NCBI GenBank assembly: GCA_013372845.1
Contig: JAALOD010000019.1
Location: 1-36,691 of the forward strand
DNA length: 36,691 bases
Direction of reading: 5' to 3'
Source of the DNA: Candidatus Udaeobacter sp.
GTDB lineage: Bacteria > Verrucomicrobiota > Verrucomicrobiia > Chthoniobacterales > UBA10450
The notes under the pieces are model-generated. The model did no database searches. It worked only from the letters and a program-made list of their open reading frames with translations, and was not told the origin of the DNA. This document shows, in pieces, positions 15,887-36,657 of this stretch; positions within the stretch are counted from its first letter, which is position 1; each line of letters begins with the position of its first letter. The translations under genes were made by a program, and so were the position numbers.

Positions 15887-17782
15887 CTACTCGGCTATGG
15901 CTGTTTCAACAGGGGACTCGCGAGGAGGGACAGGCGTTGCTGCACCCTGATCCGGCGGCGCTGCCTGGATTGAAGCAATCGTGAATTGAGCTGAGCCATG
16001 TTCTGTGTTTAGAGAAATGGTCTCGCCGATTTCATGACCGAGTAGCGCCTGTCCAATGGCGGTTTGGTAAGAGATAATGTGTCGGTCGGGATCGCCATCC
16101 CACGCGCCTAAAATCGTGTAAGTTTCCTCCTTGTCAGTCTCCACTTCGCGCAGCGTGACAATTGTGCCAATGGAAACACGCGACGTATCGACGTTTTCAA
16201 ACGATGTACCGCGCGCGTTGTGCAGCATTTGTTCCAGCTCGGTTTTTCGTCGCATGAGCACGCTTTGCATCTGCTTCGCCGCTTTAAATTCAAAATTTTC
16301 GCTCAGATCGCCATAAGACCTGGCGAGCGCGATTTCTCTGGTGTTCTCTGGAATCTTTGTCTTTACCACCTCTTCGTATTCGGCCTTGCGTCTTTCCAGG
16401 CTGCTCCAGGAAACGATTAGCGATGCGGTCTCTCCCTGGGTCTGCGCGCCTGTGATCATGCTCTCCAGTTCTGGATACACTTTGACGAGTCGGGCGAGAA
16501 GTGAGCGTTTCGTCAGCTCATCGAACAGATGGCTTAGTTGTAGCCGCCGCATCCAATCGCGCGCGGTAGCGACGTCGCTTTTCCTGAAGATGTCCCCAAG
16601 CAGTTGCCGATCTTCGACCAATGTGCGGTACAACTTGCCGGTTCGGCCAGCAGTATTGTGTTGTTCGCGCTCCAGCGCCGCAAAAATTGCGCCAAGCAAT
16701 TCCTGCGTCACCAGTTCGCTCCATTGCTCCCGCTCGCTACAAAGCCAGGCAAGCATCTCGCTCGTGGCTGAATGTTCGCGGATGCTCCGCTCCAGCATCG
16801 TCCGAAGCTCGTCATGTTTTCCGGCTTCGCTCAAGATGCGGGGAATTTGTGCGACCATCCGGCCGTGACTCTGTTGCATCAAATCCAAACCACGTTCTGT
16901 CCAGCGCGGACCGAGCGCGGTCGGCAACGCTTGCAAGATTCGTTTCTCTTTTGCCGCCGGTAATTTCGCCAGGACCGAGATCAGGCGCTTGTCTTCCTCG
17001 AGAATCAGTGTCGAAAGGGTCAAACCGATGTGCGTCGTGTGCAACGATGGGACGCGCCCAATCAAATCGTCTCGCGCGATGATGAGCTCGAACGCGAACT
17101 CCGGGTGCATTTTCTGATTGCGCACCGTCATGTTCTCGATCGTCGTGATGATCGGCTGAAGTTGTTTTTCGGATTCCCTGAATTGGTCGCAGGATTTGAT
17201 GATCTGCTCGAGCGCTGCGATTTGCGCCTTTGGTTGCCGTGCCTTGTTGAAAGCGTCGAGCAATTCGTCAGCCTGCGACACGCCTTCGCCGCGAATTTGA
17301 ATGGGTTCGGTCTTTTTTGCAGGGACAGAAAAAACGCCGCTTGCCTTGAGCGCCTTCTTGGTCGACTCCCACCAGCGTTTCCATTCCGTCTCAGTGAAAA
17401 CATCACCCACAAGCCATTCACTGATCTGCTGCGCCGTGGCTTTACCGTCCAAGCTTTCAAGAATATTTCGCACCACGGCAGGCGGATCTTCTCTTGCCAA
17501 CTTTTTGATCGACGCAAGGTCGGTCGCTTTGCGTGCGAGGAAGTGCTCTGGCGCGAGCGGCGTGACATTCTCCGCCGCGTACTCGGCCTGCATCGGATGC
17601 GACTTTTTTCCTGCAAAATCAATTACGATCTGGTTGAGCAGCAGATTCCATTCGCTCACGCGACCGAATCCCCAGCTTTTGTGCAAACAAAATGTCCCCG
17701 GCTTTAGTTGTTCGAGTTGCTGCGCGGCGCGGGAAGTGAGTTTGCCGGCTTCGACCAGTTTTTCTAATTCGGTATCCATCAA
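15887..17782 (-). CDS. greA: GreA-type transcription elongation factor with long N-terminal extension
   Basis: GreA rescues backtracked RNA polymerase by inserting its coiled-coil tip into the secondary channel and stimulating transcript cleavage. Here the GreA part is only the C-terminal third: coiled coil about residues 465-540, with the tip acidic residues Asp492 and Glu495 in YGDLSENFEFKAAK, then the FKBP-like domain (about 545-620) with IGTIVTLREV and IGQALLGHEIGE. About 450 residues of helical repeat-like sequence precede it. Ordinary GreA is about 160 residues; chlamydial GreA has a comparably long extension, so this supports a PVC-superphylum origin. A tail of about 25 residues is Pro/Ala-rich. 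The start at MM (17782) is near the TerC gene, divergent, with a 9-nt tandem array between them. Confidence 0.88.
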   Translation of the reverse strand: MMDTELEKLVEAGKLTSRAAQQLEQLKPGTFCLHKSWGFGRVSEWNLLLNQIVIDFAGKKSHPMQAEYAAENVTPLAPEHFLARKATDLASIKKLAREDPPAVVRNILESLDGKATAQQISEWLVGDVFTETEWKRWWESTKKALKASGVFSVPAKKTEPIQIRGEGVSQADELLDAFNKARQPKAQIAALEQIIKSCDQFRESEKQLQPIITTIENMTVRNQKMHPEFAFELIIARDDLIGRVPSLHTTHIGLTLSTLILEEDKRLISVLAKLPAAKEKRILQALPTALGPRWTERGLDLMQQSHGRMVAQIPRILSEAGKHDELRTMLERSIREHSATSEMLAWLCSEREQWSELVTQELLGAIFAALEREQHNTAGRTGKLYRTLVEDRQLLGDIFRKSDVATARDWMRRLQLSHLFDELTKRSLLARLVKVYPELESMITGAQTQGETASLIVSWSSLERRKAEYEEVVKTKIPENTREIALARSYGDLSENFEFKAAKQMQSVLMRRKTELEQMLHNARGTSFENVDTSRVSIGTIVTLREVETDKEETYTILGAWDGDPDRHIISYQTAIGQALLGHEIGETISLNTEHGSAQFTIASIQAAPPDQGAATPVPPRESPVETAIAE

Positions 17783-23293: not shown

Positions 23294-23386
23294 ATGAGCG
23301 AATTCATTATTGTAGGAATCATCCTTATTCTGGGCGTGAACGGGATTTACTCGCGCTTTTGCGAGCAGCCCAAAGAGAAGCGATGA
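23294..23386 (+). CDS. micro-ORF: 30-residue membrane peptide upstream of kdpF
   Basis: The ATG at 23294 starts a 30-residue peptide with one hydrophobic helix (FIIVGIILILGVNGIY) and a polar tail SRFCEQPKEKR. Its stop TGA overlaps the next micro-ORF's ATG (ATGA at 23383-23386). Its pattern resembles that next peptide: both begin Met-Ser-acidic, share GII in the helix and have Tyr-x-Arg-Phe-Cys-Glu after it. It may be a duplicated accessory peptide of the Kdp system. No homologue is recalled with certainty. Confidence 0.6.
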   Translation: MSEFIIVGIILILGVNGIYSRFCEQPKEKR

Positions 23387-23466
23387 GCGATCTCATTTTT
23401 GCAGGCATCATCGTTGCGTTTTTTGTCGCGGGCGCTCTCTACGTGCGTTTTTGCGAGAAGCTATAG
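23383..23466 (+). CDS. micro-ORF: 27-residue membrane peptide upstream of kdpF
   Basis: This ORF starts inside the stop of the previous micro-ORF and encodes a single helix (LIFAGIIVAFFVAGALYV) followed by RFCEKL. The stop lies 9 nt before the kdpF ATG, and its last bases form part of the kdpF ribosome binding site (AGGAG). I have the impression of similar unnamed peptides before kdpF in other phyla, but cannot verify it. The overlap, the shared RFCE motif and the position argue that it is translated. Confidence 0.65.
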   Translation: MSDLIFAGIIVAFFVAGALYVRFCEKL

Positions 23467-23475
23467 GAGCACAAA

Positions 23476-23559
23476 ATGGAAACGGCCGTCGTCGGGATTA
23501 TCGCGTTACTTCTCTTCGTTTATCTGCTCGTGGCAATGATTCGACCGGAAAAATTCTAA
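23476..23559 (+). CDS. kdpF: K+-transporting ATPase subunit KdpF
   Basis: This 27-residue single-helix peptide (VVGIIALLLFVYLLVAMIRPEKF) matches KdpF in length, hydrophobicity and the conserved C-terminal R/K-P-E-x-F ending. In E. coli KdpF stabilises the KdpABC complex in the membrane. A strong AGGAG lies 6 nt before the ATG. kdpA begins 7 nt after the stop. Confidence 0.9.
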   Translation: METAVVGIIALLLFVYLLVAMIRPEKF

Positions 23560-23566
23560 GATCGAT

Positions 23567-25366
23567 ATGGAAACATCCGGTTGGATTCAACTCGCGATCT
23601 TTCTAATCGCCCTGGCGCTGATTACCAAGCCGATGGGCCTTTATCTAACGCAGGTGCTCGACCCGAACGGCAGAACGTGGTTCGATCCAGTGCTGCGTCC
23701 TCTCGAGCGCGGGACGTATCGCGTCATGGGCGTTAGGCCTGATCAAGAGCACAACTGGAAACAATACACGCTCGCGATGCTGGCCTTCAGTTTGGTCGGC
23801 TGCGTTTTCACGTACGCGATCCTAAGACTGCAAAATCTTCTGCCGCTCAATCCACAGCGATTCGCCGCGGTAAATCCCGATCTCGCGTTCAACACCGCGG
23901 CCAGTTTCACGACCAACACGAACTGGCAGAACTACGGCGGCGAATCCACGATGTCTTATTTCTCGCAGATGGTTGGCCTGGCGTTTCACAATTTCGTCTC
24001 GGCCGCGACTGGCATCGCAATTGCCGCTGCGCTCGTTAGGGCAATTGCGAGACATTCCGCGCAAACCATCGGCAATTTCTGGGTGGATCTCGTTCGCGTT
24101 ACCTACTACGTGCTGCTGCCGATTTGCCTGGTCTTAGCAGTATTCCTGGTGTCGCAAGGCATGATTCAAAATTTCAAGCCTTACACGAAGGCGACGCTGG
24201 TCGAGCCGATGAAGGTCCAGGTCGAGAAGAAAAACGATCAAGGCGAAACAATCAAAGGACCAGACGGCAAAGCGATCACGGAAGAGCAGACCATAACTGA
24301 GCAGAGCATTGTGCAGGGTCCAATGGCGTCGCAGGTCGCAATCAAGATGCTCGGGACCAACGGCGGTGGATACGTCAACGCCAACGCGGCAGATCCATTC
24401 GAGAATCCCACGCCGCTCTCAAATCTTGTTCAGATGTTGTCGATCTTCGCAATCGGCAGCGGACTCACTTACTACCTCGGCCGCATGGTTAAAAATCAGA
24501 AGCACGGCTGGACGGTGTGGGCGGCGATGGTGACCCTTTTTCTCGGCGGCGTGCTCTTGTGTTGGTGGGCGGAATCATCCGGCAATCCCATCCATCAACA
24601 TCTCGGCGTCGCCGCGGCGGATGGAAACATGGAGGGTAAGGAGGTCCGGTTCGGCATTTTCAACTCGGCGCTTTTCGCCACCGTCACCACGGACGCATCC
24701 TGCGGCGCAGTCAATTCGATGCATGATTCGTTCACTGCACTGGGCGGCTTGGTTCCGCTGTTCAACATCCAGTTAGGCGAGATCATTATTGGGGGAACCG
24801 GGGCCGGCCTCTACGGGATTCTTGTGTTTGTGGTGCTCGCGGTTTTCATCGCTGGCCTGATGGTTGGTCGCACACCGGAATATCTCGGCAAAAAAATTGA
24901 AGCCTACGACGTGAAGATGGCGATGCTCTCATTGCTCATCCTCGCGATCTCGATTCTTGGTTTCTCTGGGTGGGCGATAGTGAGCAAATGGGGTCTGGCC
25001 GGATTAAACAACGGTGGTCCGCACGGGCTGAGTGAGATTCTCTACGCCTTCAGCTCCGGCGCCGGAAATAACGGCAGCGCATTTGCTGGTCTCTCCGGAA
25101 ATACTCCCTGGTACAACACGACCCTCGGTCTGGACATGTTGTTTGGCCGGTTTCTCATGATCGTCCCGATCATGGCGCTGGCCGGATCGCTGGTGCAAAA
25201 GAAGGTCGCGCCGGCCAGTGCGGGCACGTTTCCAGTGCATGGCGGAACGTTTCTTATTCTCCTGCTCGGTACCGTTATCTTGATCGGCGCGCTCAACTTT
25301 CTTCCTGCGCTGACGCTCGGCCCAATCGTCGAACACTTCCTGATGCAAGGTGGAAAACTTTTTTAA
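23567..25366 (+). CDS. kdpA: K+-transporting ATPase subunit KdpA (first copy)
   Basis: KdpA is the K+-selective, channel-like subunit of the inner-membrane KdpFABC pump. The four selectivity-filter loops are intact: TNTNW at 116-120, TNGGG at 264-268, SCGAVN at 378-383 and NNGSAF at 501-506. The 599 residues exceed the E. coli protein (557), mainly because of a charged insert at about 209-250 (EKKNDQGETIKGPDGKAITE) between filters 1 and 2, probably in an extracytoplasmic loop. The C-terminal YNTTLGLDMLFGRF segment places it in the common KdpA lineage. It follows kdpF by 7 nt and precedes kdpB by 18 nt. A second, different KdpA is encoded at 30135. Confidence 0.96.
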   Translation: METSGWIQLAIFLIALALITKPMGLYLTQVLDPNGRTWFDPVLRPLERGTYRVMGVRPDQEHNWKQYTLAMLAFSLVGCVFTYAILRLQNLLPLNPQRFAAVNPDLAFNTAASFTTNTNWQNYGGESTMSYFSQMVGLAFHNFVSAATGIAIAAALVRAIARHSAQTIGNFWVDLVRVTYYVLLPICLVLAVFLVSQGMIQNFKPYTKATLVEPMKVQVEKKNDQGETIKGPDGKAITEEQTITEQSIVQGPMASQVAIKMLGTNGGGYVNANAADPFENPTPLSNLVQMLSIFAIGSGLTYYLGRMVKNQKHGWTVWAAMVTLFLGGVLLCWWAESSGNPIHQHLGVAAADGNMEGKEVRFGIFNSALFATVTTDASCGAVNSMHDSFTALGGLVPLFNIQLGEIIIGGTGAGLYGILVFVVLAVFIAGLMVGRTPEYLGKKIEAYDVKMAMLSLLILAISILGFSGWAIVSKWGLAGLNNGGPHGLSEILYAFSSGAGNNGSAFAGLSGNTPWYNTTLGLDMLFGRFLMIVPIMALAGSLVQKKVAPASAGTFPVHGGTFLILLLGTVILIGALNFLPALTLGPIVEHFLMQGGKLF

Positions 25367-25384
25367 GATCAACATCCAAACTTC

Positions 25385-27427
25385 ATGACACAAAAACCTG
25401 CATCGCTTTTTGACTGGAACATTATTGGTCCGGCCATCGCCGATGCGTTCAAGAAATTGAATCCGCGTCTGATGGTGAAGAACCCGGTCATGTTTGTAAC
25501 GATGGTCGGCGCCGCCCTAACGACTGTCGGTATCTTCACCACTGAGTCGGCACTACGCGGTTTCGTCGCGCAACTGGCGATCTGGCTCTGGTTCACGGTG
25601 CTCTTCGCCAATTTTGCTGAAGCAGTCGCGGAAGGGCGAGGCAAAGCGCAGGCAGCCAGTCTGCGTCGGGCGCGCAAGGATACGATGGCGCGTCGCCTGC
25701 AGAATGGCCGCGAGGTAAAAGTTCCAGCGCCTATCTTGCAAAAAGGCGACCTCGTAGTTTGCGAAGCGGGCGACACCATTCCGGCAGACGGCGACGTTAT
25801 CGAAGGAATCGCCAGCGTGGATGAGGCGGCGATCACAGGCGAATCGGCGCCCGTGATTCGCGAGAGCGGCGGCGACCGCAGCGCAGTCACCGGCGGCACA
25901 CGCGTGTTGAGCGATCGAATTGTGATCCGAATCACTGCAGACAAAGGCGCCGGTTTTCTGGATAAAATGATTGCGCTGGTCGAAGGCGCGCGCCGTCAGA
26001 AAACGCCTAACGAAATCGCGCTCACGATTCTTCTGGCCGCGTTGACGTTCATTTTTCTCCTGGTATGCGTCACGCTGAAACCGTTCGGTATCTATTCGGG
26101 CGCGGCGTTCTCCATTCCAGTTCTGGTTGCGCTGCTCGTTTGTTTGATTCCAACAACGATTGGCGGGTTGCTCAGCGCAATTGGCATCGCAGGAATGGAT
26201 CGCGTTCTTCAGCGCAATGTGCTGGCAATGAGCGGGCGCGCCGTCGAGGCAGCCGGGGATGTCGACGTCCTGCTCCTCGATAAAACCGGGACGATCACGC
26301 TCGGAAATCGGATGGCCGTTGGGTTTCATCCCGCGCCCGGCGTCGAGCCTAATGATCTGGCTGCATCCGCGCAATTGAGCTCGCTGGCGGACGAAACCCC
26401 GGAAGGACGCTCGATTGTCGTGCTCGCGAAAGAGAAGTTCGGATTGCGCGCGCGGGAAATGCACGAGTTGGAGGCGACGTTCGTGCCCTTCACCGCGCAG
26501 ACACGCATGAGCGGTGTCGATCTTCATGCCAATGGCACGCAACCGACGATGCGTGTACGCAAGGGCGCGGCTGAAGCGGTGCGCGGATTTGTCGAATCAG
26601 CGGGCGGAATGTTTCCGCAATCCGTCGCGAACACGGTTGATGAAATTTCCCATCGTGGCGGCACTCCGCTGGTCGTCGCATCGGACATGATGACGCTCGG
26701 CACGATCGAGCTCAAAGACGTGGTCAAAGGTGGAATCAAGGAGCGCTTCGCGCAGTTGCGCAAAATGGGAATCAAGACGGTGATGATCACCGGCGACAAT
26801 CCACTCACCGCCGCAGCAATCGCAGCTGAAGCCGGCGTGGATGATTTCATGGCGCAAGCGACGCCGGAACAAAAACTCAAACGCATCCGGCACGAACAAT
26901 CCGAAGGTCATCTGGTCGCCATGACCGGCGACGGAACCAACGACGCACCGGCGCTCGCGCAAGCCGATGTGGGCGTCGCGATGAACACTGGCACGCAGGC
27001 GGCGCGCGAAGCCGGAAACATGGTCGATCTCGACAGCAATCCGACGAAGCTGCTCGACATCGTTGAGATCGGGAAACAGATGCTGATCACGCGCGGCTCG
27101 CTTACCACCTTCAGCATCGCAAACGATGTAGCGAAGTATTTCGCGATCATTCCCGCAATGTTGATGGTCAGGTTTTCCGAGGTGGCGCCGCTCAACATCA
27201 TGCACTTGCACAGTCCGACCAGCGCGATTCTGAGCGCCGTCATTTTTAACGCGCTCATCATCATTACGCTTATCCCGCTGGCCCTGCGTGGCGTTGCATA
27301 TAAGCCAATGGGCGCGCTGGCGATTTTGCAGCGCAATCTTCTCATCTATGGCTTCGGCGGCCTCGTCGTTCCGTTTATCGGCATCAAACTGATCGACCTG
27401 ATCATCACAGCGCTCCATCTGGCCTGA
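25385..27427 (+). CDS. kdpB: K+-transporting ATPase subunit KdpB
   Basis: KdpB is the P-type ATPase subunit that powers K+ uptake by KdpFABC. The 680-residue length is standard. The phosphorylation motif DKTGT begins at Asp299, the actuator motif TGES is at 151-154 (its serine matches the inhibitory phosphorylation site described in E. coli), and [10 protein letters not shown] and [13 protein letters not shown] form the hinge region. The membrane segment [12 protein letters not shown] is also typical. kdpC starts 4 nt downstream, so the two are almost certainly co-translated. Only one KdpB is encoded in the window although there are two KdpA proteins. Confidence 0.98.
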
Positions 27428-27431
27428 CGAA

Positions 27432-28016
27432 ATGAAAGAATTCTTCTCCAATATACGAGGCGCAGTCGTATCGACGTTCGTGCTGGCAGTCGTCTGCTGC
27501 GGTCTTTATCCGCTCATTGTTTTCGGAATTTCTCAGACGTTCTTTCGCGACAAAGCCAACGGTAGTTTGATCCTCGATCCGGACGGAACGGCGCGAGGCT
27601 CAAAATTGCTGGGCCAGGGATTTGCGGACGCAAAATATTTTCATCCGCGACCTTCCGCCGCAGGCAACGGTTACGACGCGACCAGCTCCGGTGGCAGTAA
27701 TCTCGGTCCGACTTCGCGAAAACTGAACGACGCGATCAAGGAGCGCCTAGCCGCGTATCGGGCGGAAAATGGTTTGAGCGAATCCGCGCCGGTGCCGGCG
27801 GACGCGGTCACCGCATCGGGCAGCGGCCTCGATCCGCACATCAGTTTGCAAAACGCAGAACTGCAAATCCCCCGTGTGGTAAAAGCGCGCGGCGTGGCTG
27901 ACGAGAAGGTGCGCGAGCTGATCAGGCAAAATACAAACGGCCGCGATTTCGGCGTTTTCGGGGAGCCTGGCGTGAATGTTCTTCAACTCAATCGTGCGCT
28001 CGATCAGCTGCACTGA
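27432..28016 (+). CDS. kdpC: K+-transporting ATPase subunit KdpC
   Basis: KdpC is the single-pass periplasmic subunit that assembles with KdpA and KdpB and raises K+ affinity. The 194-residue protein has an N-terminal transmembrane helix (about residues 10-35), then KANGSLI-type beta-rich sequence, the conserved YFHPRPSAAGNGYDATSSGGSN region (residues about 72-93) and the C-terminal ASGSGLDPHIS and GEPGVNVLQLNRALD blocks. All main family blocks are there. The spacing of 4 nt from kdpB is typical of kdp operons. A 258-nt spacer follows before the porin gene. Confidence 0.97.
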   Translation: MKEFFSNIRGAVVSTFVLAVVCCGLYPLIVFGISQTFFRDKANGSLILDPDGTARGSKLLGQGFADAKYFHPRPSAAGNGYDATSSGGSNLGPTSRKLNDAIKERLAAYRAENGLSESAPVPADAVTASGSGLDPHISLQNAELQIPRVVKARGVADEKVRELIRQNTNGRDFGVFGEPGVNVLQLNRALDQLH

Positions 28017-28274: not shown

Positions 28275-29924
28275 ATGAATATTAAGAAATGTCTGATCAC
28301 GATCGTGTCGGGGATACTTATTACTGCTGTGACGCACGCGCAGGAGGCGTCCGAAGACTTGACCGCTGAACAACACCAGCTTGCTCAACGGAAAGCCGAG
28401 CTGGACGCACGCGAGAAAGCACTGGATAGACGCGAGAAAAAATTGGCTGAAAAAGAAAAGGCCACAGCAAGTTCCACTTCGCGGTCCCGTGAGAAGGGAA
28501 AAGCCAAGGCCAAGCATCAGCAAACGATAGCCCAGAGCCAGGAAGAACAAGCGAAAGCGGCTCGTGCAGAAAAGAAACTACACGAACCGTTTGTGCAACG
28601 CTTGGGAGAAGCGTTTCTGGAACAGTTGGGCACGCCGGCATACACGCCCCCCGATCCCAACGCCCCAAACCCACGCCGTATTCCACCGGCGCCGTTCGAT
28701 TCGCCGCCTTTTCCTTCCAGCGATTGGCAAATCGGCGGAAGTCCGGTCATTGGCGATCCTGGAGAATTGGCACCGTGGCCGTTGATGCAGGCCATTTACG
28801 AAGGACCGGGCGGGCAGGCTTGGAAAGACAGCAAAATCCAGATTTACGGCTGGGTAAATTTCTCGGGAAATATCAGCACTTCGCATCCCTCAAAGCAGAG
28901 CGAAAACGGAAATTTCCCATTGGTTTATGACATTCGGCCGAACCGGATGGAGCTAAACCAGATCGTCCTCTACGTCGAGCGCCTTCCCGATGAAAACCAG
29001 ACTGATCACATTGATTGGGGGTTTCGATACTCAATGCTCTATGGACTCGACTATCGTTTCACGATTACCCGCGGCTGGTTCAGCGACCAACTCTTAAAGC
29101 ACAACAGTTACTCCGGCTTCGACATGCCGATGGTGTATCTCGATCTTTACATTCCTTACGTTTTTCAAGGCATGAACATCCGCATTGGTCGCATCATTTC
29201 CGAGCCGGACATCGAAGCGCAACTCGCGCCGAACAATCTCATGGCCAGCCACTCGATCCTCTACGGTTTCGATCCTTATTGTCAGGAGGGGATCTTCACT
29301 ACGACGAAGATTAACAACCAATGGACGATTCAAGCAGGAATTTCTGACGGCACCGACGTCGCCATCTGGCAGGAAGACCCGGGTCGGCAAGTCACCGGCA
29401 CGGTGATGATTCAATACACTACGCCTAATCAGATGGATTCCTTTTACTTTGGCGACAATGTGATCAACAACGGCCAGTTCGGATACAACAACATGCAACA
29501 GATCGTTGGAACGTGGACTCACAAATTCAACGACAAGATCTACACCGCCACCGAAGGCTGGTACATGTGGGAACACAACGCCATTGATCATCCAACGGCG
29601 GAGGTACCGTTTCAAAGCGGCTCGTTTCCGGTTCAGAACGGTTATGCGCCGGAGTGGGCTGTCGTGAATTACACAATGTTTCGGATTGCACCTAGCGCGT
29701 TTTTCACGGTGCGGAATGAATACTTTGACGACAAGGTGGGTGCCAGGACCGGGTTTGCCACACAGTATTCCGAACATTCCATCGGCATCACCTGGTGGCC
29801 GGATAAACTCATCACTATTCGCCCCGAGCTCCGATTCGATCATTCTTACGGTGATCGCGCGTACAATAACGGGACCAGGCATAACCAGTTCGCATTCATT
29901 ACCGACGTGATTTACCACTTCTGA
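28275..29924 (+). CDS. outer-membrane porin (BBP2-like) with N-terminal coiled coil
   Basis: From the ATG at 28275, preceded by AAGGA, the protein has 549 residues. A signal peptide covers 1-22 (ending AVTHA). A charged coiled coil follows (about 30-115, AQRKAELDAREKALDRREKK) together with Lys/Ala-rich sequence, then a Pro-rich linker (about 130-165). The rest looks like a beta-barrel of the putative beta-barrel porin-2 type: alternating aromatic/polar strands such as IQIYGWVNFSGNIS, IDWGFRYSMLYG, NIRIGRIISE, and a C-terminal strand ending in Phe (FITDVIYHF). It probably admits small solutes across the outer membrane, and in this operon K+ supply is a fair guess. The coiled coil may reach toward peptidoglycan. 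Upstream frame to 28068 is not accepted. Confidence 0.85.
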   Translation: MNIKKCLITIVSGILITAVTHAQEASEDLTAEQHQLAQRKAELDAREKALDRREKKLAEKEKATASSTSRSREKGKAKAKHQQTIAQSQEEQAKAARAEKKLHEPFVQRLGEAFLEQLGTPAYTPPDPNAPNPRRIPPAPFDSPPFPSSDWQIGGSPVIGDPGELAPWPLMQAIYEGPGGQAWKDSKIQIYGWVNFSGNISTSHPSKQSENGNFPLVYDIRPNRMELNQIVLYVERLPDENQTDHIDWGFRYSMLYGLDYRFTITRGWFSDQLLKHNSYSGFDMPMVYLDLYIPYVFQGMNIRIGRIISEPDIEAQLAPNNLMASHSILYGFDPYCQEGIFTTTKINNQWTIQAGISDGTDVAIWQEDPGRQVTGTVMIQYTTPNQMDSFYFGDNVINNGQFGYNNMQQIVGTWTHKFNDKIYTATEGWYMWEHNAIDHPTAEVPFQSGSFPVQNGYAPEWAVVNYTMFRIAPSAFFTVRNEYFDDKVGARTGFATQYSEHSIGITWWPDKLITIRPELRFDHSYGDRAYNNGTRHNQFAFITDVIYHF

Positions 29925-29930
29925 CAACCT

Positions 29931-30044
29931 ATGAATGACTTCTTACTCCACCTGTTTGTTCTGGCGCTATTTGTAATTCCCCTGGCTTGGCTTACGATTT
30001 TCGAGAAAAAAGCTTTGAAGAGGCGAAAGCACTTAAAGCTATAG
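29931..30044 (+). CDS. micro-ORF: 37-residue membrane peptide before the second kdpA
   Basis: The ATG at 29931, 6 nt after the porin stop, starts a peptide with one helix (FLLHLFVLALFVIPLAWLTIF) and a strongly basic tail (EKKALKRRKHLKL), giving a cytoplasmic C-terminus by the positive-inside rule. It sits before kdpA2 as kdpF sits before kdpA, though 90 nt away and with no KdpF-like PEKF ending. It may be a KdpF analogue for the second KdpA. No family recognised. Confidence 0.6.
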   Translation: MNDFLLHLFVLALFVIPLAWLTIFEKKALKRRKHLKL

Positions 30045-30134
30045 CAGCACGATCTTTCTTTGGTTGGCTAAGTGCTGCCGACACCGAAGCGGCTTTTCGC
30101 CAGTCGCGGCGGTTTTGCTCTCACAAAATGTAAC

Positions 30135-31826
30135 ATGAGCGCAAATGCCATTCAGGCTGGGCTCTTTGTTATTGTCGTGGCGCTGCTCGTGAAGCCGGTG
30201 GGCGCGTACCTGGAACACGTTTTCGAACGGCGACATACTTTCCTTGATCCGCTGCTTCTACCGGCGGAGCGACTGATCCACCGGCTCATCGGCGTTGATC
30301 CCAAACGCGAAATGGATTGGAAGCGTTATTCGTTAGCCTTCGGCGTATTTGGCATGGTTAACGTCGTTGTTCTCTATTTCGCACTGCGCTCGCAGGCGTG
30401 GTTTCCGTGGTTCTTTCCGAAAGTATTGACCACGCCGATGACGCCTGATCTCGCAGCCAATACGGCAGTTAGTTTTGCAACTACTACCACGTGGCAAGCC
30501 TATGCCGGCGAAACCACGATGAGCTACTTCAGTCAGCTCTTGCTCGCAGGACAAAACTTTTTCGCCGGCGCAGCCGGCCTTGCTGTGGGAATCGCCTTCA
30601 TTCGCGGTTACGCGCGAGAGCGCACTACAACACTTGGAAATTTTTGGAGCGACCTGATTCGCGCCATCCTCTGGGTCCTGTTGCCAACGTCGATCTTGGG
30701 CAGTCTGATGTTGATCGCGCAAGGTGTGCCGATGAATTTTCAGCCATACACGATTGCGCACACGCTAGAAGGCGCTACCCAGACGATCGCTCAGGGACCG
30801 GTCGCGGCATTGGAGCTGATCAAAAACCTTGGTACGAACGGCGGCGGTTTTTTCAATGTTAACGCTGCGCATCCATTCGAGAATCCGACTGGCCTAACGA
30901 ATTTCCTCGAACTGCTGGCTATTGTCGTCGTTCCGGCTGCGCTCACCCACACTTTCGGACGAATGGTCGGTCGTCCGCGCGACGGTTGGGTTCTTTTTTG
31001 GACAATGACTGCACTCTTTATCGCCGGGTTGGTTGCGTGCAATTTGGCAGAATCGACAATGCATCCTGCGTTCGCACGCGACATCGTCGGCGGCAACATG
31101 GAAGGCAAGGAACAACGTTTCGGTATTGCCGGTTCCGCGCTGGCGGCAGAAGTAACCTCGAACACGTCCACTGGTTCCTACAATGCGATGGATGACAGCT
31201 TTCAGCCGCTCGGTGTTGCCGTGCCATTGGTCAACATGCTTCTCGGCGAAATTATTTACGGCGGTCTCGGCGGCGGACTTTACGGAATGATCTTCGTCGC
31301 GTTGATCGCGCTCTTTATCGGCGGTTTAATGATCGGCCGCACGCCCGATCATCTTGGGAAACAAATTGGTCCGCCGGAGATGAAGATCGTCGCGCTCTAT
31401 ACATTGGTTGCGCCGGTCACAATGCTTTCACTAACAGCGATTGCGGTAGTGACAAAACCCGGTCTCGCGGGTTTGACCACGAACACTGGCACTCATGGCT
31501 TCACCGAAATTCTTTTCGCTTATGCAAGTTGCTTTGCCAACAACGGCCAAACAATGGCGAGCCTCAACGCGAACAACCTCTTCTATAATATGACAACGAT
31601 TGTCGCCATGCTGGCGGGCCGATACGCTCTGGCAATTCTAGCACTGGCGTTGGCCGGTCGATTCGCCTCGATGTCACGTCGACCGCCCGGGCCGGGCACG
31701 TTGGCTTCGGACACGATTACGTTTGGCATTTTACTTGCCGGAACCGCGTTGTTGCTCGGCGCGCTCAGTTATCTCCCTGCTCTCTCACTCGGTCCGATCG
31801 TCGAACATTTCTCAATGCATCCCTAG
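30135..31826 (+). CDS. second, divergent KdpA-like K+-translocating subunit
   Basis: This 563-residue KdpA homologue has ten or so membrane helices. Filter loops are TTTTW at 116-120, TNGGG at 234-238, STGSYN at 345-350 and ANNGQ at 468-472. Compared with the first copy it lacks the charged insert, has TGSYNAMDDSF in place of CGAVNSMHDSF, and ends in the FYNMTTIVAMLAGRY type of sequence. It therefore seems to belong to a different KdpA lineage and not to be a recent duplicate. No second kdpB or kdpC accompanies it. It may exchange with KdpA in the pump or act alone as a K+ channel or carrier. The frame opens at 30072, but the ATG at 30135 matches the KdpA N-terminus. Confidence 0.93.
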   Translation: MSANAIQAGLFVIVVALLVKPVGAYLEHVFERRHTFLDPLLLPAERLIHRLIGVDPKREMDWKRYSLAFGVFGMVNVVVLYFALRSQAWFPWFFPKVLTTPMTPDLAANTAVSFATTTTWQAYAGETTMSYFSQLLLAGQNFFAGAAGLAVGIAFIRGYARERTTTLGNFWSDLIRAILWVLLPTSILGSLMLIAQGVPMNFQPYTIAHTLEGATQTIAQGPVAALELIKNLGTNGGGFFNVNAAHPFENPTGLTNFLELLAIVVVPAALTHTFGRMVGRPRDGWVLFWTMTALFIAGLVACNLAESTMHPAFARDIVGGNMEGKEQRFGIAGSALAAEVTSNTSTGSYNAMDDSFQPLGVAVPLVNMLLGEIIYGGLGGGLYGMIFVALIALFIGGLMIGRTPDHLGKQIGPPEMKIVALYTLVAPVTMLSLTAIAVVTKPGLAGLTTNTGTHGFTEILFAYASCFANNGQTMASLNANNLFYNMTTIVAMLAGRYALAILALALAGRFASMSRRPPGPGTLASDTITFGILLAGTALLLGALSYLPALSLGPIVEHFSMHP

Positions 31827-31844
31827 CATCAGCATAATCTTTCA

Positions 31845-33281
31845 ATGGAAATCCCGGCTACAATTTTCACTATCCCCACCTATCGTCTGCGTGATGTGCC
31901 GGAAACCGTCGAACGCTACGACGAAAATTTCTGGCTAAACGGAAACGAGGTTGCACTCATCGTCTTCGACGATTCGAGCCTGGTTAATCACCACAAGTAC
32001 TACGCACAGCTCGAAGCGACGCGCACTGGCAACCCGCTTTATTATGTCGGTCCGCGGGAGAAAGAACAGTTCATCCAGCTCCTCTTGCATCGTCTGCGCG
32101 AGCCGAAACTTGAAGGGCCTGTTCGCAATCTCTTCCGCCCAAGCTACGGCGGGAACCGGAACTTCACGCTTATGTATTCGTTAGGCGCGTTCCTCGTCTC
32201 TTCGGATGACGACATGCGGCCAAGCGCATTGATCGAACACAGCCCGGAAAGTCTGGCCCCCGATGAAATTTGCCGTGGCAAGCTGATGAAAGCCAGAGCG
32301 GGAGGATTCGAGGAGAGGTCGTTCGATCTGCTCACCGCATTTAATGATGTGCTCGGCAAGACCGTCCGCGATCTGCCAGGCAACTATGAGAAAGGCGATC
32401 TCGTCACAGATACGTCGATGGACTTGGAGACGAACACGACAGAGACCTTTTCGCGCGAAAACTCGCTCATCCTCCACCGGGGAAAAGTTCCCGCCAAAGC
32501 AGTGGTCAAGATTGCGCAGACGTTCCGGACCGGCACGAACGATATCGATGCCCTCGATTACGTCGAGATGTTTCTGGATGATGAGCAGCAGCTCGATCCC
32601 TATTCCCTCAACGATGTGTATGCGCTAGTGAACTTTCGCCCGGTCGTTACGAACAACAATTGGCGGATCGATTGCGGCGTGGCTGCCTACGACAATCGGT
32701 ACGGCCTACCGCCATTCTTCCCCACGCGCTTGCGGTTTGAGGACTACATCTATCGCCTCTGGATCCAACAGTCGAAGATTGTGTCGGCGCATGTGGACGC
32801 CGCGCAACGTCACATGAAGAACAACTACATGCGGAATCCGCTGGCAATGGAGGTGTTCAATGAAGAGCTCTGCTCCCTGCTGAAACGCAGAATCAAAGAC
32901 AGCGTCTTCCACCGTGACGATCTCAGCATCGCGTTCCATTACGCTGGCGACGTAGCGCTGGAAGAATCCGAAGCAATCCTGAGGAAAGTCACTGCGGTGC
33001 ACAAACGGGTGCTTGCGGGCGCAGACCGCGCGCATGATCCAAAACGCGCGCTCGCGCTTCGTGCCTTCGCCGCCAATCTGGCAAAATCCTTCTACGGATT
33101 CGAACCCGATTTCTTTCAACAAAACGTCTCGCGGATTGTGGAGGACGTGATCAGCCAGATTCGCGGGTCACTCGAGCTGTGGCCGACGTTAGTGGAAATT
33201 TGTTATTTCCGAAAAGATAAAGCGCCCCTGCCGAGAACCCGCGTCCGGAACCAGCCGCGAAATAACGGCAAATCGCGATAA
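31845..33281 (+). CDS. GT-A-fold glycosyltransferase-like protein within the kdp island
   Basis: This 478-residue soluble protein begins with a family-2-like nucleotide-sugar binding half: IFTIPTYRLRDVPETVERY, then LIVFDDSS (41-45) and a DDD motif at 121-123 in AFLVSSDDDMRP, the expected metal/UDP-sugar site. A possible catalytic segment is RFEDYIYRLW, with Glu299-Asp300. The C-terminal part (about 330-460) is helical. No signal peptide or membrane helix is seen. It starts 18 nt after kdpA2 and ends 74 nt before kdpD. The acceptor is unknown. Synthesis of a sugar-based compatible solute or a sugar-modified envelope component under K+ or osmotic stress would fit the context, but both are inference. 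Confidence 0.7.
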   Translation: MEIPATIFTIPTYRLRDVPETVERYDENFWLNGNEVALIVFDDSSLVNHHKYYAQLEATRTGNPLYYVGPREKEQFIQLLLHRLREPKLEGPVRNLFRPSYGGNRNFTLMYSLGAFLVSSDDDMRPSALIEHSPESLAPDEICRGKLMKARAGGFEERSFDLLTAFNDVLGKTVRDLPGNYEKGDLVTDTSMDLETNTTETFSRENSLILHRGKVPAKAVVKIAQTFRTGTNDIDALDYVEMFLDDEQQLDPYSLNDVYALVNFRPVVTNNNWRIDCGVAAYDNRYGLPPFFPTRLRFEDYIYRLWIQQSKIVSAHVDAAQRHMKNNYMRNPLAMEVFNEELCSLLKRRIKDSVFHRDDLSIAFHYAGDVALEESEAILRKVTAVHKRVLAGADRAHDPKRALALRAFAANLAKSFYGFEPDFFQQNVSRIVEDVISQIRGSLELWPTLVEICYFRKDKAPLPRTRVRNQPRNNGKSR

Positions 33282-33355
33282 CCAGAACGTTCTCTGCTTC
33301 GCAGGGTCGCCCGGTGTAACTGGAATCGATTGCAACCAAAGCGTAGAATTACCGC

Positions 33356-35983
33356 ATGAGCGAGGCCGAACGGCCTGATCCAGATGCGTTGCTCGCGCAA
33401 TTGAAGCGCGAAGAAGTGAAGTCCACCCGAGGGAAGCTGAAGATTTTCTTCGGGATGTCGCCCGGCGTGGGGAAGACCTATGCCATGTTACAAGCGGCAC
33501 GGCAGAAACAAGCGGAAGGATGCGAGGTGGTGGTCGGGATTGTAGAAACACACGGTCGCAAGGAAACCGAAGCGTTGCTGGAAGGAATGCCGATCATGCC
33601 GCGGACGCAGATCGAGTATCGCGGAACGAAGCTCGACGAGATGGATCTCGATGCGATCCTCACCTGGCATCCCGGTCTCGCAGTTGTCGATGAACTGGCA
33701 CACACCAACGCACCTGGCTCGCGTCACCCGAAGCGTTACCAGGATGTGCTCGAACTGCTCGATGCCGGCATTAGTGTTTACACCACGCTCAACGTCCAGC
33801 ACGTCGCCAGCCGTAGCGATGTCGTCCGTCAGATCAGTGGTATTTCGGTCCACGAAACAGTTCCTGATACTGTTCTCGATCTTGCCGACGAAATCATTCT
33901 TGTCGATCTAACGCCGGAGCAACTGCGGGCGCGCTTAGCCGAAGGAAAAGTGTATCTCGGCGAGCGCGCAGAGTGGGCGGCGCGAAATTTCTTCCGTGAA
34001 AGCAACCTGACCGCCTTGCGCGAAATGGCGTTGCGGCTGGTGGCCGAACATGTCGATCGCGATCTGCGCGACATTATGCAGGTGGAGCGGATCGCTGGTC
34101 CGTGGAAAAGCGGCGATCGTCTGCTCGTCGCAGTCAGCGCGAGTCCTTACTCGGAGAGATTGATTCGCTACACGCGCCGGTTGGCGGCATCGATGGAAGC
34201 TTCCTGGGTCGTCGCGAACATCGAGCGACCGCGCCCGCTTTCGCAAGAGGAGCAAACACGCCTGACTCGCTACCTCGCGCTCGCGCGCCAACTGGGCGCG
34301 GAAGTAATTTCCACGCCCGGTACCGATATCGGCGGGGCCCTGCTCCGTATCGCCCGTGAACACAACGTCACTCAGATCGTTATCGGCAAGCCGCTCGGCT
34401 CGCGATGGACAAGCTTTTGGAAACGCGACCCGTTGCGCTGGCTGATGCGCAACAGCGGGAACATCGACATCCACATGATTCCGGCTGACGAATCGGCGCG
34501 GCCGCGCCATGAACCAATCGAGGAGCGTCTCGCGCGCGCACCGTGGCGCGACTTTGGCGTCGCACTCGTTATCGCGGCGGTCGTTACCGCCTTGTCCTTG
34601 TCGATCTTCGATTACACTGGCTACTGGGCCGTTTCGCTTTTCTTTTTGCTCGCCGTCGTTCTCGCCGCCACACGATTACCACGGTGGCCGACGCTTTTTC
34701 TCGCCGCGCTCAGCGCGTTCCTTTGGGATTTTCTCTTCATCCCTCCGCGTTTCACTTTTTATATCACCCACCTCCACGACTTCTTGATGTTCGGCGCCTA
34801 TTTCGTGATCGCGCTTGTCATCGGTCACCTCGCGACAAAATTACGCGAGCGCGAACAATCGGAGCGCCGGCGTGAAGAACGGGCCACCGCGCTTTACCGT
34901 TTCACACGAGCCCTCGCTGCCAGCCGCGATCTCGATGAAGCCCTGCCGAAAGTTTTGGCGCTTATCAAAGAAACTTTCGAAGCTGATGCAGTGGTTTGGC
35001 TGCACGACGAGAGCGGCCTTTCTTGTCATCCGGCGAGCACGTTCGCGCCATCGAGCAAAGATGAAAGCGTCGCCGTCTGGGCGTTTCAAAAAAAACAAAG
35101 CGCCGGAAGATCGACCGAGACATTGCCGGATGCCGACGCATTGCACATCCCGCTTGTCACCGGCGACCGCGCCGAAGGTGTGCTGACCGTGCATCTCGCA
35201 AACCCGCCAACGATGGAACAACGCGAGTTGCTCGACGCCTTTGCTGCGCAGCTCGCCCTCTTTGTGAACAAAGAGCGTGCCCTGGAAGAAAGCCGCGCCG
35301 CGCAAGTTGCCCATCAGTCGCAGAAATTGCAAAAGACGCTTTTCGATTCTGTCTCGCATGAATTGAAAACGCCGCTTGCCGCCATGACAGCGGCTTTGCA
35401 GCAGCCGCAGCCCGACCGCGCCGAGTTGCAACAAGCCGTCCGCCGTCTTACCCGCACGGTCGATCATTTGCTTGACGCAACGCGTTTGGAATCGGGCCTT
35501 CTTCAGCCCAGGCGGGAATGGTGCGAACCGGGCGAACTTGTGCGCGAGGCAGTGGCGATGTCGGGATTAAAGGAAAGCGCGGTCCGAGTAAATATCGCCA
35601 AAAATCTTCCAACTATTTCAGTGGACGCGCACTTGATTCAACAAGCGCTGGGCGCGTTACTCTCGAATGCGGCCGGTCACGCCAGGAACGACCAGCCGAT
35701 CGAAGTGAACGCGGCGCGCGACGACTCGATGCTTGTGATTTCCGTGGCTGATCACGGGGCGGGTCTTGCGCCCGGTGAGGAAAATAGAGTCTTTGAAAAA
35801 TTCTATCGCGGTCCCGGCACCGCACCTGGCGGTCTCGGCCTTGGCCTTTCCATCGCGCGCCAACTGGTCGAGGCGCACTCCGGGGAGATCGTCGCGCAAA
35901 ATCGAGAAGAAGGCGGCTCGCGCTTTTCGATTCGCCTTCCCATCGGCGAACCGATGCAATTGCCCAATGAAGCGACCGCATGA
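33356..35983 (+). CDS. kdpD: sensor histidine kinase KdpD
   Basis: KdpD senses K+ limitation and osmotic conditions and phosphorylates KdpE. The 875-residue protein has the full layout: KdpD N-terminal domain with Walker A GMSPGVGKT at 33-41 and the DELAHTN Walker B-like block at about 112; a USP-like domain (about 250-380, VIGKPLGS); four transmembrane helices of the DUF4118 region (about 398-495); a GAF domain (about 515-640); HisKA with phospho-acceptor His668 in SHELKTP; and the ATPase domain with SNAAGHARN, DHGAG and GLGLGLSIA. The ATG at 33356 has no clear ribosome binding site. Its end overlaps the kdpE start. Confidence 0.97.
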   Translation: MSEAERPDPDALLAQLKREEVKSTRGKLKIFFGMSPGVGKTYAMLQAARQKQAEGCEVVVGIVETHGRKETEALLEGMPIMPRTQIEYRGTKLDEMDLDAILTWHPGLAVVDELAHTNAPGSRHPKRYQDVLELLDAGISVYTTLNVQHVASRSDVVRQISGISVHETVPDTVLDLADEIILVDLTPEQLRARLAEGKVYLGERAEWAARNFFRESNLTALREMALRLVAEHVDRDLRDIMQVERIAGPWKSGDRLLVAVSASPYSERLIRYTRRLAASMEASWVVANIERPRPLSQEEQTRLTRYLALARQLGAEVISTPGTDIGGALLRIAREHNVTQIVIGKPLGSRWTSFWKRDPLRWLMRNSGNIDIHMIPADESARPRHEPIEERLARAPWRDFGVALVIAAVVTALSLSIFDYTGYWAVSLFFLLAVVLAATRLPRWPTLFLAALSAFLWDFLFIPPRFTFYITHLHDFLMFGAYFVIALVIGHLATKLREREQSERRREERATALYRFTRALAASRDLDEALPKVLALIKETFEADAVVWLHDESGLSCHPASTFAPSSKDESVAVWAFQKKQSAGRSTETLPDADALHIPLVTGDRAEGVLTVHLANPPTMEQRELLDAFAAQLALFVNKERALEESRAAQVAHQSQKLQKTLFDSVSHELKTPLAAMTAALQQPQPDRAELQQAVRRLTRTVDHLLDATRLESGLLQPRREWCEPGELVREAVAMSGLKESAVRVNIAKNLPTISVDAHLIQQALGALLSNAAGHARNDQPIEVNAARDDSMLVISVADHGAGLAPGEENRVFEKFYRGPGTAPGGLGLGLSIARQLVEAHSGEIVAQNREEGGSRFSIRLPIGEPMQLPNEATA

Positions 35984-36657
35984 AACCGGTCGCATTGATT
36001 GTCGATGACGAACCACAGATTCGGCGGCTGCTGAGAGTTGTCCTCGAAGGCGAGAACTACCAAGTGCAGGAGGCCGAGAATGGCCAGCAGGGCTTAACTG
36101 AGATCGCGAATCGCCGTCCCGCGATCATTCTGCTCGATCTTGGTCTTCCCGATATGGAGGGACTCGAGGTGTTGAAACGTTTGCGTGAATGGAGTGAAGC
36201 GCCCGTGCTCGTTCTTTCTGTGCGCGATGACGAACAGAGCAAAGTGGCCGCGCTCGATTCAGGCGCGGAAGACTACGTCACCAAACCTTTCAGCACGGCG
36301 GAATTACTCGCACGTCTGCGCGCTGCGCAACGTAAGACGCGGCCTGAAGAAGAAGTTTCCATCTTCAAAAGTGGCAATCTAATTGTTGATCTTACGGCGC
36401 GGGTGGTGAAACGCGCCGGTCATGAAATCAAGCTCACGGCAACCGAGTATGCGCTGCTCCGATTATTCGTTAGGCATCCTGGTCGCGTCCTCACCCATCG
36501 CTACATCCTTCGCGAAATCTGGGGCCCGAAATCGGAAGAACATCGGCAGTATCTGCGCGTTTACGTTACGCATCTGAGGCAAAAAATTGAGCCCGATCCG
36601 ACCAAGCCATCTCTAATCAGGACGGAACCGGGAATCGGGTATCGTTTCGCAGGCTAA
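35980..36657 (+). CDS. kdpE: response regulator KdpE
   Basis: KdpE is the OmpR/PhoB-type DNA-binding regulator that activates kdp transcription. The 225-residue protein has an N-terminal receiver with the acidic pair at Asp9-Asp10, phospho-acceptor Asp53 (LLDLGLPD) and the YVTKPF lysine, then a winged-helix domain (about 130-225) with LTATEYALLRLFVRHPGRVLT-type sequence and GIGYRF at the end. Its ATG overlaps the kdpD stop (ATGA), so sensor and regulator are translationally coupled. A KdpE-binding site would be expected before 23294, but I cannot point to one. The last 34 nt of the window hold no feature I can identify. Confidence 0.97.
   Translation: MKPVALIVDDEPQIRRLLRVVLEGENYQVQEAENGQQGLTEIANRRPAIILLDLGLPDMEGLEVLKRLREWSEAPVLVLSVRDDEQSKVAALDSGAEDYVTKPFSTAELLARLRAAQRKTRPEEEVSIFKSGNLIVDLTARVVKRAGHEIKLTATEYALLRLFVRHPGRVLTHRYILREIWGPKSEEHRQYLRVYVTHLRQKIEPDPTKPSLIRTEPGIGYRFAG

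Follow-up and report, generated by a model that had tools for sequence, protein, structure and literature searches.

An orphan KdpA with an altered selectivity filter as a candidate KdpB-independent cation conductor

Introduction

To our knowledge, KdpA has so far been described solely as the filter-bearing half of KdpFABC, the potassium pump. We analyzed a 36,691-nt stretch of a Candidatus Udaeobacter sp. genome (contig JAALOD010000019.1, assembly GCA_013372845.1; hereafter, the window), in which a second KdpA gene, kdpA2, stands apart from a complete kdp operon, raising the question of what a KdpA can do without a KdpB of its own. A search of the open-access literature, with subscription journals mostly outside its coverage, yielded no description of a KdpA that is orphan, a second copy or without KdpB. 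The answer we put forward, tentatively and at somewhat less than an even chance, is that KdpA2 represents a widespread KdpA subfamily that may work without KdpB as a channel-like cation conductor, either alone or with a dedicated KdpC2.

Results

An intact second KdpA in the kdp locus

The locus reads kdpF, kdpA1, kdpB, kdpC, porin, 37-aa ORF, kdpA2, 478-aa ORF, kdpD and kdpE (Table 1). The ORF of kdpA2 runs without interruption from an ATG at 30135 to a stop at 31826, as judged from the ORF list and comparison with homologues; a GTG start farther upstream, at 30072, found no support among the homologues. PF03814, the sole Pfam match of the protein, covers it over the whole profile (667 bits against a cut-off of 22.6), and TIGR00680 matches at 599 bits against an equivalog cut-off of 388. 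Since KdpA2 proteins pass this equivalog cut-off, databases name them KdpA, and genome annotation hides them.

Profile searches of the whole assembly (3.22 Mb, 145 contigs, 83% complete) identified two KdpA and a single copy each of KdpB and KdpC, every one inside the window. This confirms the observation of the first-pass annotation, an orphan second KdpA at 30135-31826 with neither KdpB nor KdpC of its own. Because the genome is incomplete, the orphan status of kdpA2 leans on its relatives more than on the source genome.

Table 1. Features of the kdp locus in the window and of the KdpA2 selectivity filter
Feature	Position	Strand	Basis
kdpF, ordinary operon (METAVVGIIALLLFVYLLVAMIRPEKF)	23476..23559	+	PF09604 40.8 bits, cut-off 21.2
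kdpA1, ordinary KdpA of the operon	23567..25366	+	ORF; PF03814/TIGR00680 profiles
kdpB, only KdpB of the assembly	25385..27427	+	profile search
kdpC, only KdpC of the assembly	27432..28016	+	profile search
BBP2-type outer-membrane porin	28275..29924	+	PF07642 115 bits; 80-82% identical to L039/L040 porin
3.4-kb block between porin and kdpD (sORF37, kdpA2, orf478)	29925..33350	+	blastn vs G020/G008 (L039, L040)
sORF37, 37 aa, one predicted TM helix	29931..30044	+	resembles small peptide upstream of kdpA1 in L037
kdpA2, orphan KdpA paralogue, 563 aa	30135..31826	+	ORF; PF03814 667 bits; TIGR00680 599 bits; own clade; dN/dS
filter 1, TTTTWQ (ordinary KdpA TNTNWQ), residues 116-121	30480..30497	+	alignment; coordinates from protein position
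filter 2, TNGGG, unchanged, residues 234-238	30834..30848	+	alignment
filter 3, STGSYN (ordinary SCGAVN), residues 345-350	31167..31184	+	alignment
filter 4, ANNGQ (ordinary xNNGS), residues 468-472	31536..31550	+	alignment
orf478, no family match	31845..33281	+	Pfam, NCBIfam, PHROGs; neighbourhoods
kdpD, sensor kinase	33356..35983	+	PF02702 314 bits
kdpE, response regulator	35980..36657	+	Pfam

KdpA2 forms a separate clade under purifying selection

Pairwise alignment of KdpA1 and KdpA2 gave 44% identity, whereas KdpA2 is 73-76% identical to the kdpA2 products of other genera. Among 83 genomes surveyed from the same family, an orthologue in this 73-76% range occurs in three besides the source genome, each time together with an ordinary kdpABC, and a scan of one genome per species across bacteria and archaea added nine members at 58-65%, followed by a gap down to ordinary KdpA at 51% or less. 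A profile built from 13 members split 396 Acidobacteriota genomes cleanly (members 979-1044 bits, others at most 727) and found members in 7/47 Ktedonobacteria; it detected none besides that of the window among 388 sampled Verrucomicrobiota, and none besides the query among 96 genomes from the order of an alphaproteobacterial metagenome-assembled genome (MAG). The clade thus assembled comprises 22 loci in 21 genomes of four phyla (Verrucomicrobiota, Acidobacteriota, Chloroflexota and Proteobacteria). Plasmid carriage was considered as well, and no plasmid record contained a member (best match 49.5% identity).

Trees of 61 and 51 KdpA sequences, calculated with the filter columns deleted, place the 22 members on one side of a single branch with 100/100 support. 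Phyla mostly cluster together inside the clade. KdpA1 of the window is placed close to Acidobacteriota, in one group with the other kdpA1 products of its family. The separate ancestry of the two copies, suggested by the first-pass annotation, is therefore strongly supported by their placement in different, fully supported clades, and the phylogeny with both copies that it had called for shows that they are not sister sequences from a recent duplication. Its supporting arguments fared less well. The charged insert is indeed present in KdpA1 (approximately residues 218-250) and absent from KdpA2, but many ordinary KdpA of 567-575 aa lack it too, so it does not mark ancestry; the difference in C-terminal type is trivial and non-diagnostic.

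For six pairs of clade members, dN/dS is 0.05-0.12, similar to kdpA1, indicating purifying selection. That kdpA2 is a recent duplicate or a decaying copy of the operon gene might be suspected from its position on the same contig and in the same family, and from one member broken by a TGA in Ktedonobacteria. Both the phylogeny and the rates of substitution refute this explanation, with greater identity to the kdpA2 of other genera than to kdpA1 and dN/dS of about 0.1, and we give it practically no weight. Decay, the other outcome that the first-pass annotation had named as refuting, is excluded by the same rates together with the fixation of new filter residues.

The KdpA2 filter carries fixed substitutions

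The filter strings quoted in the first-pass annotation (STGSYNAMDD, ANNGQTMASL and an unchanged TNGGG) were verified in the alignment, which revealed in addition a change that it had overlooked: filter 1 reads SFATTTTWQAY rather than SFTTNTNWQNY. With residues numbered as in E. coli KdpA (N112, G232, E370 and so on), N112T, N114T, A341N, C344T and A346S are present in 22/22 clade members and S469Q in 95%, each against 0-5% of 85 ordinary KdpA, and S343 is replaced by Ala in 86% of the 22 members. Ordinary KdpA keep N112, N114 and S469 at 96-100%, where KdpA2 has T, T and Q. G232, G345, G468 and Q116 are found in all 22 KdpA2 members, and E370, R400 and R493 are retained in the aligned clade. 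Given that new residues became fixed while the glycines, Q116, E370 and R400 stayed, the pore chemistry is altered but maintained.

Not every difference is equally informative. The H-to-D change (MDDSF) occurs in just 23% of the clade and is, hence, non-diagnostic, and a Deinococcus KdpA carries T344 and S346, so that filter 3 by itself is not unique to the clade. Very divergent plasmid KdpA (35-37% identity) still have N112, N114 and NNGS. Judged by its filter, KdpA2 is a distinct KdpA subfamily and not an ordinary KdpA, as residues 112, 114 and 469 differ, and on the alignment the most diagnostic change is TTTTWQ for TNTNWQ in filter 1. In KdpA, affinity and selectivity are determined by Q116 and G232; K+ occupies mainly site S3, and S4 is provided with side-chain oxygens (PMC12629597). 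The rearranged hydroxyl- and amide-bearing side chains around the KdpA2 filter plausibly change affinity or selectivity.

kdpA2 is separated from kdpB and kdpF

At loci with enough flanking sequence, kdpB lies directly downstream of 73/80 ordinary kdpA but 0/20 kdpA2, and a KdpF-like peptide is encoded upstream of 68/81 ordinary kdpA but 0/20 kdpA2, counts for which Fisher values are not true probabilities because the loci share kinship. At the genome level, kdpB is present in 18/21 kdpA2 genomes; the remaining three (G086, G090 and G890) lack it, probably because their assemblies are incomplete, and in G090 a kdpC lies at the extreme edge of a contig. Within the family of the window, all four kdpA2 genomes fall among the 10/83 with an ordinary kdpA (P ~1e-4), a hint of dependence on KdpB.

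KdpC presents a different picture. A kdpC2 gene (271-294 aa) precedes kdpA2 in six Ktedonobacteria loci, where all five products tested by Pfam contain the full KdpC domain, and in one gammaproteobacterial MAG kdpA2 likewise lies downstream of its own kdpC2. Thus, of the claim that kdpA2 comes without KdpB or KdpC, the first part extends to the whole subfamily, whereas the second does not hold in these two lineages. In the tree, Ktedonobacteria KdpC2 form a single deep clade, and gammaproteobacterial KdpC2 is separate and independently derived. An ancient association in which every KdpA2 was inherited together with a KdpC2 was rejected, as KdpC2 of locus L047 groups elsewhere. Compared with KdpC (PF02669), KdpC2 proteins differ in length (255-294 aa versus ~195) and in having no kdpB alongside; those of Ktedonobacteria have the full domain (206-218 bits) and form the deep separate branch. 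Two further observations concern Ktedonobacteria: one genome (G897) carries two kdpC2-kdpA2 cassettes, L181 and L182, ~0.5 Mb apart, and at L184 (G905) kdpA2 is broken by one TGA next to an intact kdpC2, through real loss or sequencing error.

A conserved partner other than KdpC was also considered and rejected, as the neighbors vary by lineage. A BBP2 porin adjoins kdpA2 in the window, L041 and L059, a DUF2254 gene in L043 and L048, and NtrC-type regulators in L035, L037 and L178; in G040 and G022, kdpA2 is flanked by an NtrC-type regulator on one side and by a histidine kinase/regulator pair on the other. This last arrangement, the adjacency to kdpDE in the window and the non-conducting behavior of E. 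coli KdpA alone (PMC6255902) would suit a regulatory or sensing paralogue that binds K+ without conducting it and either informs neighboring two-component systems or titrates KdpC. Such a role seems improbable to us, given that the neighboring regulators are inconstant across the clade and that the vestibule and filter backbone residues of a conducting path are conserved.

A separate observation concerns other K+ systems: TrkH/KtrB (PF02386) is absent from 7/7 kdpA2 genomes (G000, G022, G023, G040, G084, G356 and G906) and present in 11/14 controls. We did not adopt the idea that kdpA2 replaces Trk, since a survey of Verrucomicrobia found three K+ systems, namely, a KcsA-like channel, Kdp and Kup (PMC9543262).

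The predicted fold is that of KdpA, with partly relaxed KdpB-facing segments

The AlphaFold model of KdpA2 (pTM 0.85, with low confidence in the filter loops) contains the ten TM helices and four pore loops of the superfamily of K+ transporters (SKT) fold and matches KdpA chains at TM 0.91, followed by KtrB/TrkH at ~0.5. The published contacts of KdpA with KdpB are F386, L389, R400, I421, L422, Q513, V538 and L541 (PMC6255902). Inspection of this interface, recommended by the first-pass annotation, gave a mixed result. R400, the residue bonded to the P domain of KdpB, is conserved in 100% of the clade, and L422 and L541 are kept along with E370 and R493, whereas the F386 and I421 types are changed, K510 (100% in ordinary KdpA) is lost, and the stretch 507-551 is relaxed.

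Using sets of clade and ordinary KdpA with equal mean divergence, we found conservation of the clade reduced by 0.20 at 507-551 and by 0.10 at 372-431, the stretches with published KdpB contacts, and higher at 12-281 and 432-506. Around the eight contacts (±3 residues), the centered drop is 0.166 in the clade, compared with 0.022 in ordinary alphaproteobacterial KdpA and none in acidobacterial KdpA. Circular shifts reach the drop of the clade in ~1.5% of cases with the ±3 window and in 12.5% on the bare eight residues, which is not significant; the signal is modest and based on only eight published contact residues. The pattern favors, without proving, loss of the constraint imposed by KdpB.

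Discussion

KdpA2 as a possible stand-alone or KdpC-assisted conductor

The own clade, fixed filter residues, purifying selection, lack of an adjacent kdpB or kdpF at the sampled loci, presence of a dedicated kdpC in two lineages and relaxation of KdpB-facing segments together argue for separation from the KdpFB motor. We accordingly consider it nearly an even possibility that the KdpA2 subfamily has been freed from the KdpB motor and serves as a channel-like conductor of K+ or a similar cation, assisted by KdpC where kdpC2 exists. KdpA2 would fold as KdpA, with a four-fold pseudosymmetric SKT pore, filter, E370/R493 vestibule and D3M2 loop, and its modified filter would bind K+ or a similar monovalent cation. 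The protein would then conduct or hold the cation without KdpB, alone or stabilized by KdpC (KdpC2 in Ktedonobacteria), acting as a channel-like, membrane-potential-driven partner of the high-affinity pump with a different affinity or selectivity, and kdpA2 might be controlled by the same kdpDE or by a neighboring two-component system. Several findings count against a KdpB-free KdpA2: E. coli KdpA expressed alone gives no K+ uptake (PMC6255902), the KdpA2 sequences bear no sign that the seal below the D3M2 loop, closed in E. coli KdpA, is open, kdpB persists in most kdpA2 genomes, and R400 is invariant.

In the main competing explanation, KdpA2 would take the place of KdpA1 in the pump as a second ion-selecting subunit, with or without KdpC2, such that one shared KdpB would serve two filters of differing affinity or selectivity. 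The co-occurrence with kdpB in 18/21 genomes fits this possibility, as does the linkage of kdpA2 to a kdp operon within ~10 kb at eight loci (the window, L035, L037, L041, L059, L177, L180 and L181), most closely in L177 (G348), where kdpA2 directly follows kdpA1-kdpB-kdpC. R400, E370, R493, L422 and L541 are all kept, and a joint swap of the A and C subunits is plausible because KdpC and the KdpA filter set affinity. Conversely, the KdpB-facing segments are relaxed with loss of the K510, F386 and I421 types, no kdpF accompanies kdpA2, the operons are separate, and the members in L036, L178 and L183 are remote from every kdp gene. A replacement subunit is, in our estimate, a substantial possibility but one falling clearly short of even, and the stand-alone or KdpC-assisted role is ranked slightly above it. 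Exchange into the pump and stand-alone transport were the two functions suggested by the first-pass annotation.

Relationship to known systems

KdpA2 resembles KdpA of KdpFABC (E. coli 6hra chain A) in its full-length homology at ~45% identity, in the predicted fold and in sharing G232/G345/G468, Q116, E370, R400 and R493. It differs in N112T, N114T, C344T, A346S and S469Q, the loss of K510, the absence of an adjacent kdpB or kdpF and its own clade. KtrB and TrkH are SKT channels that operate without an ATPase pump subunit. KdpA2 shares with them the superfamily fold and, by hypothesis, independence from such a subunit, but has no PF02386 match and only 13-16% identity. No TrkA/KtrA-type gene was recognized beside kdpA2 in the neighborhoods examined, and where KdpA2 has a partner, this is KdpC rather than an RCK protein.

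If the KdpB-independent reading is correct, no KdpA before KdpA2 has been found to act outside the pump, and the subfamily would show in living organisms how a pump was assembled from an SKT channel or fell back into one. The lineage makes two questions testable, namely, the role of KdpC independent of KdpB and the way in which residues 112, 114, 344, 346 and 469 set the affinity and selectivity of KdpA.

History of the locus and additional small genes

Homology to G020 and G008 detected by blastn ends at 29924 and restarts at 33351-33353. In these genomes, the porin and kdpDE are 79-87% identical to those of the window and directly adjacent, so that the 37-aa ORF, kdpA2 and orf478 make up a 3.4-kb block at a site that is empty there; their kdpABC is of another lineage, and kdpA2 is absent. 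By this comparison, the kdp locus of the window is a mosaic: the kdpDE regulator pair is conserved, and the structural genes next to it appear to have been exchanged. The empty porin-kdpD site in these two close relatives, together with the fragmented, 83% complete assembly, might also indicate an artefact of assembly or binning that joined a foreign kdpA2 into the contig. We consider this very unlikely, as orthologues share one contig with kdpA1BC in G040 and G022, the same linkage recurs in other phyla, and the GC content of the 3.4-kb block is the same as that of its surroundings.

The 37-aa ORF was rejected as a KdpF for kdpA2, as it does not match KdpF and a KdpF-like peptide is likewise missing from the other members. 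The orf478 product has no match in Pfam, NCBIfam or PHROGs, and the gene does not lie beside kdpA2 in the neighborhoods of relatives. Upstream of kdpA2, RNA folding was no better than that of shuffled sequences (z +1.4), and promoter and terminator scans remained at chance level.

Elsewhere in the window, at 15890-17782 on the minus strand, a 631-aa ORF has a GreA/GreB elongation-factor domain only at its C-terminus, preceded by ~450 unassigned residues. Just upstream of kdpF, 42/81 ordinary kdp operons from many phyla encode an unnamed one-TM peptide of ~27 aa ending in (A/F)C(E/D)(R/K)L, with sites at 23383-23466 and 23294-23386 in the window and in L035, L038, L041, L101, L134, L065, L100 and others. 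Among those tested, this peptide had no above-cut-off Pfam or NCBIfam match; it may represent a small component of Kdp that has escaped notice.
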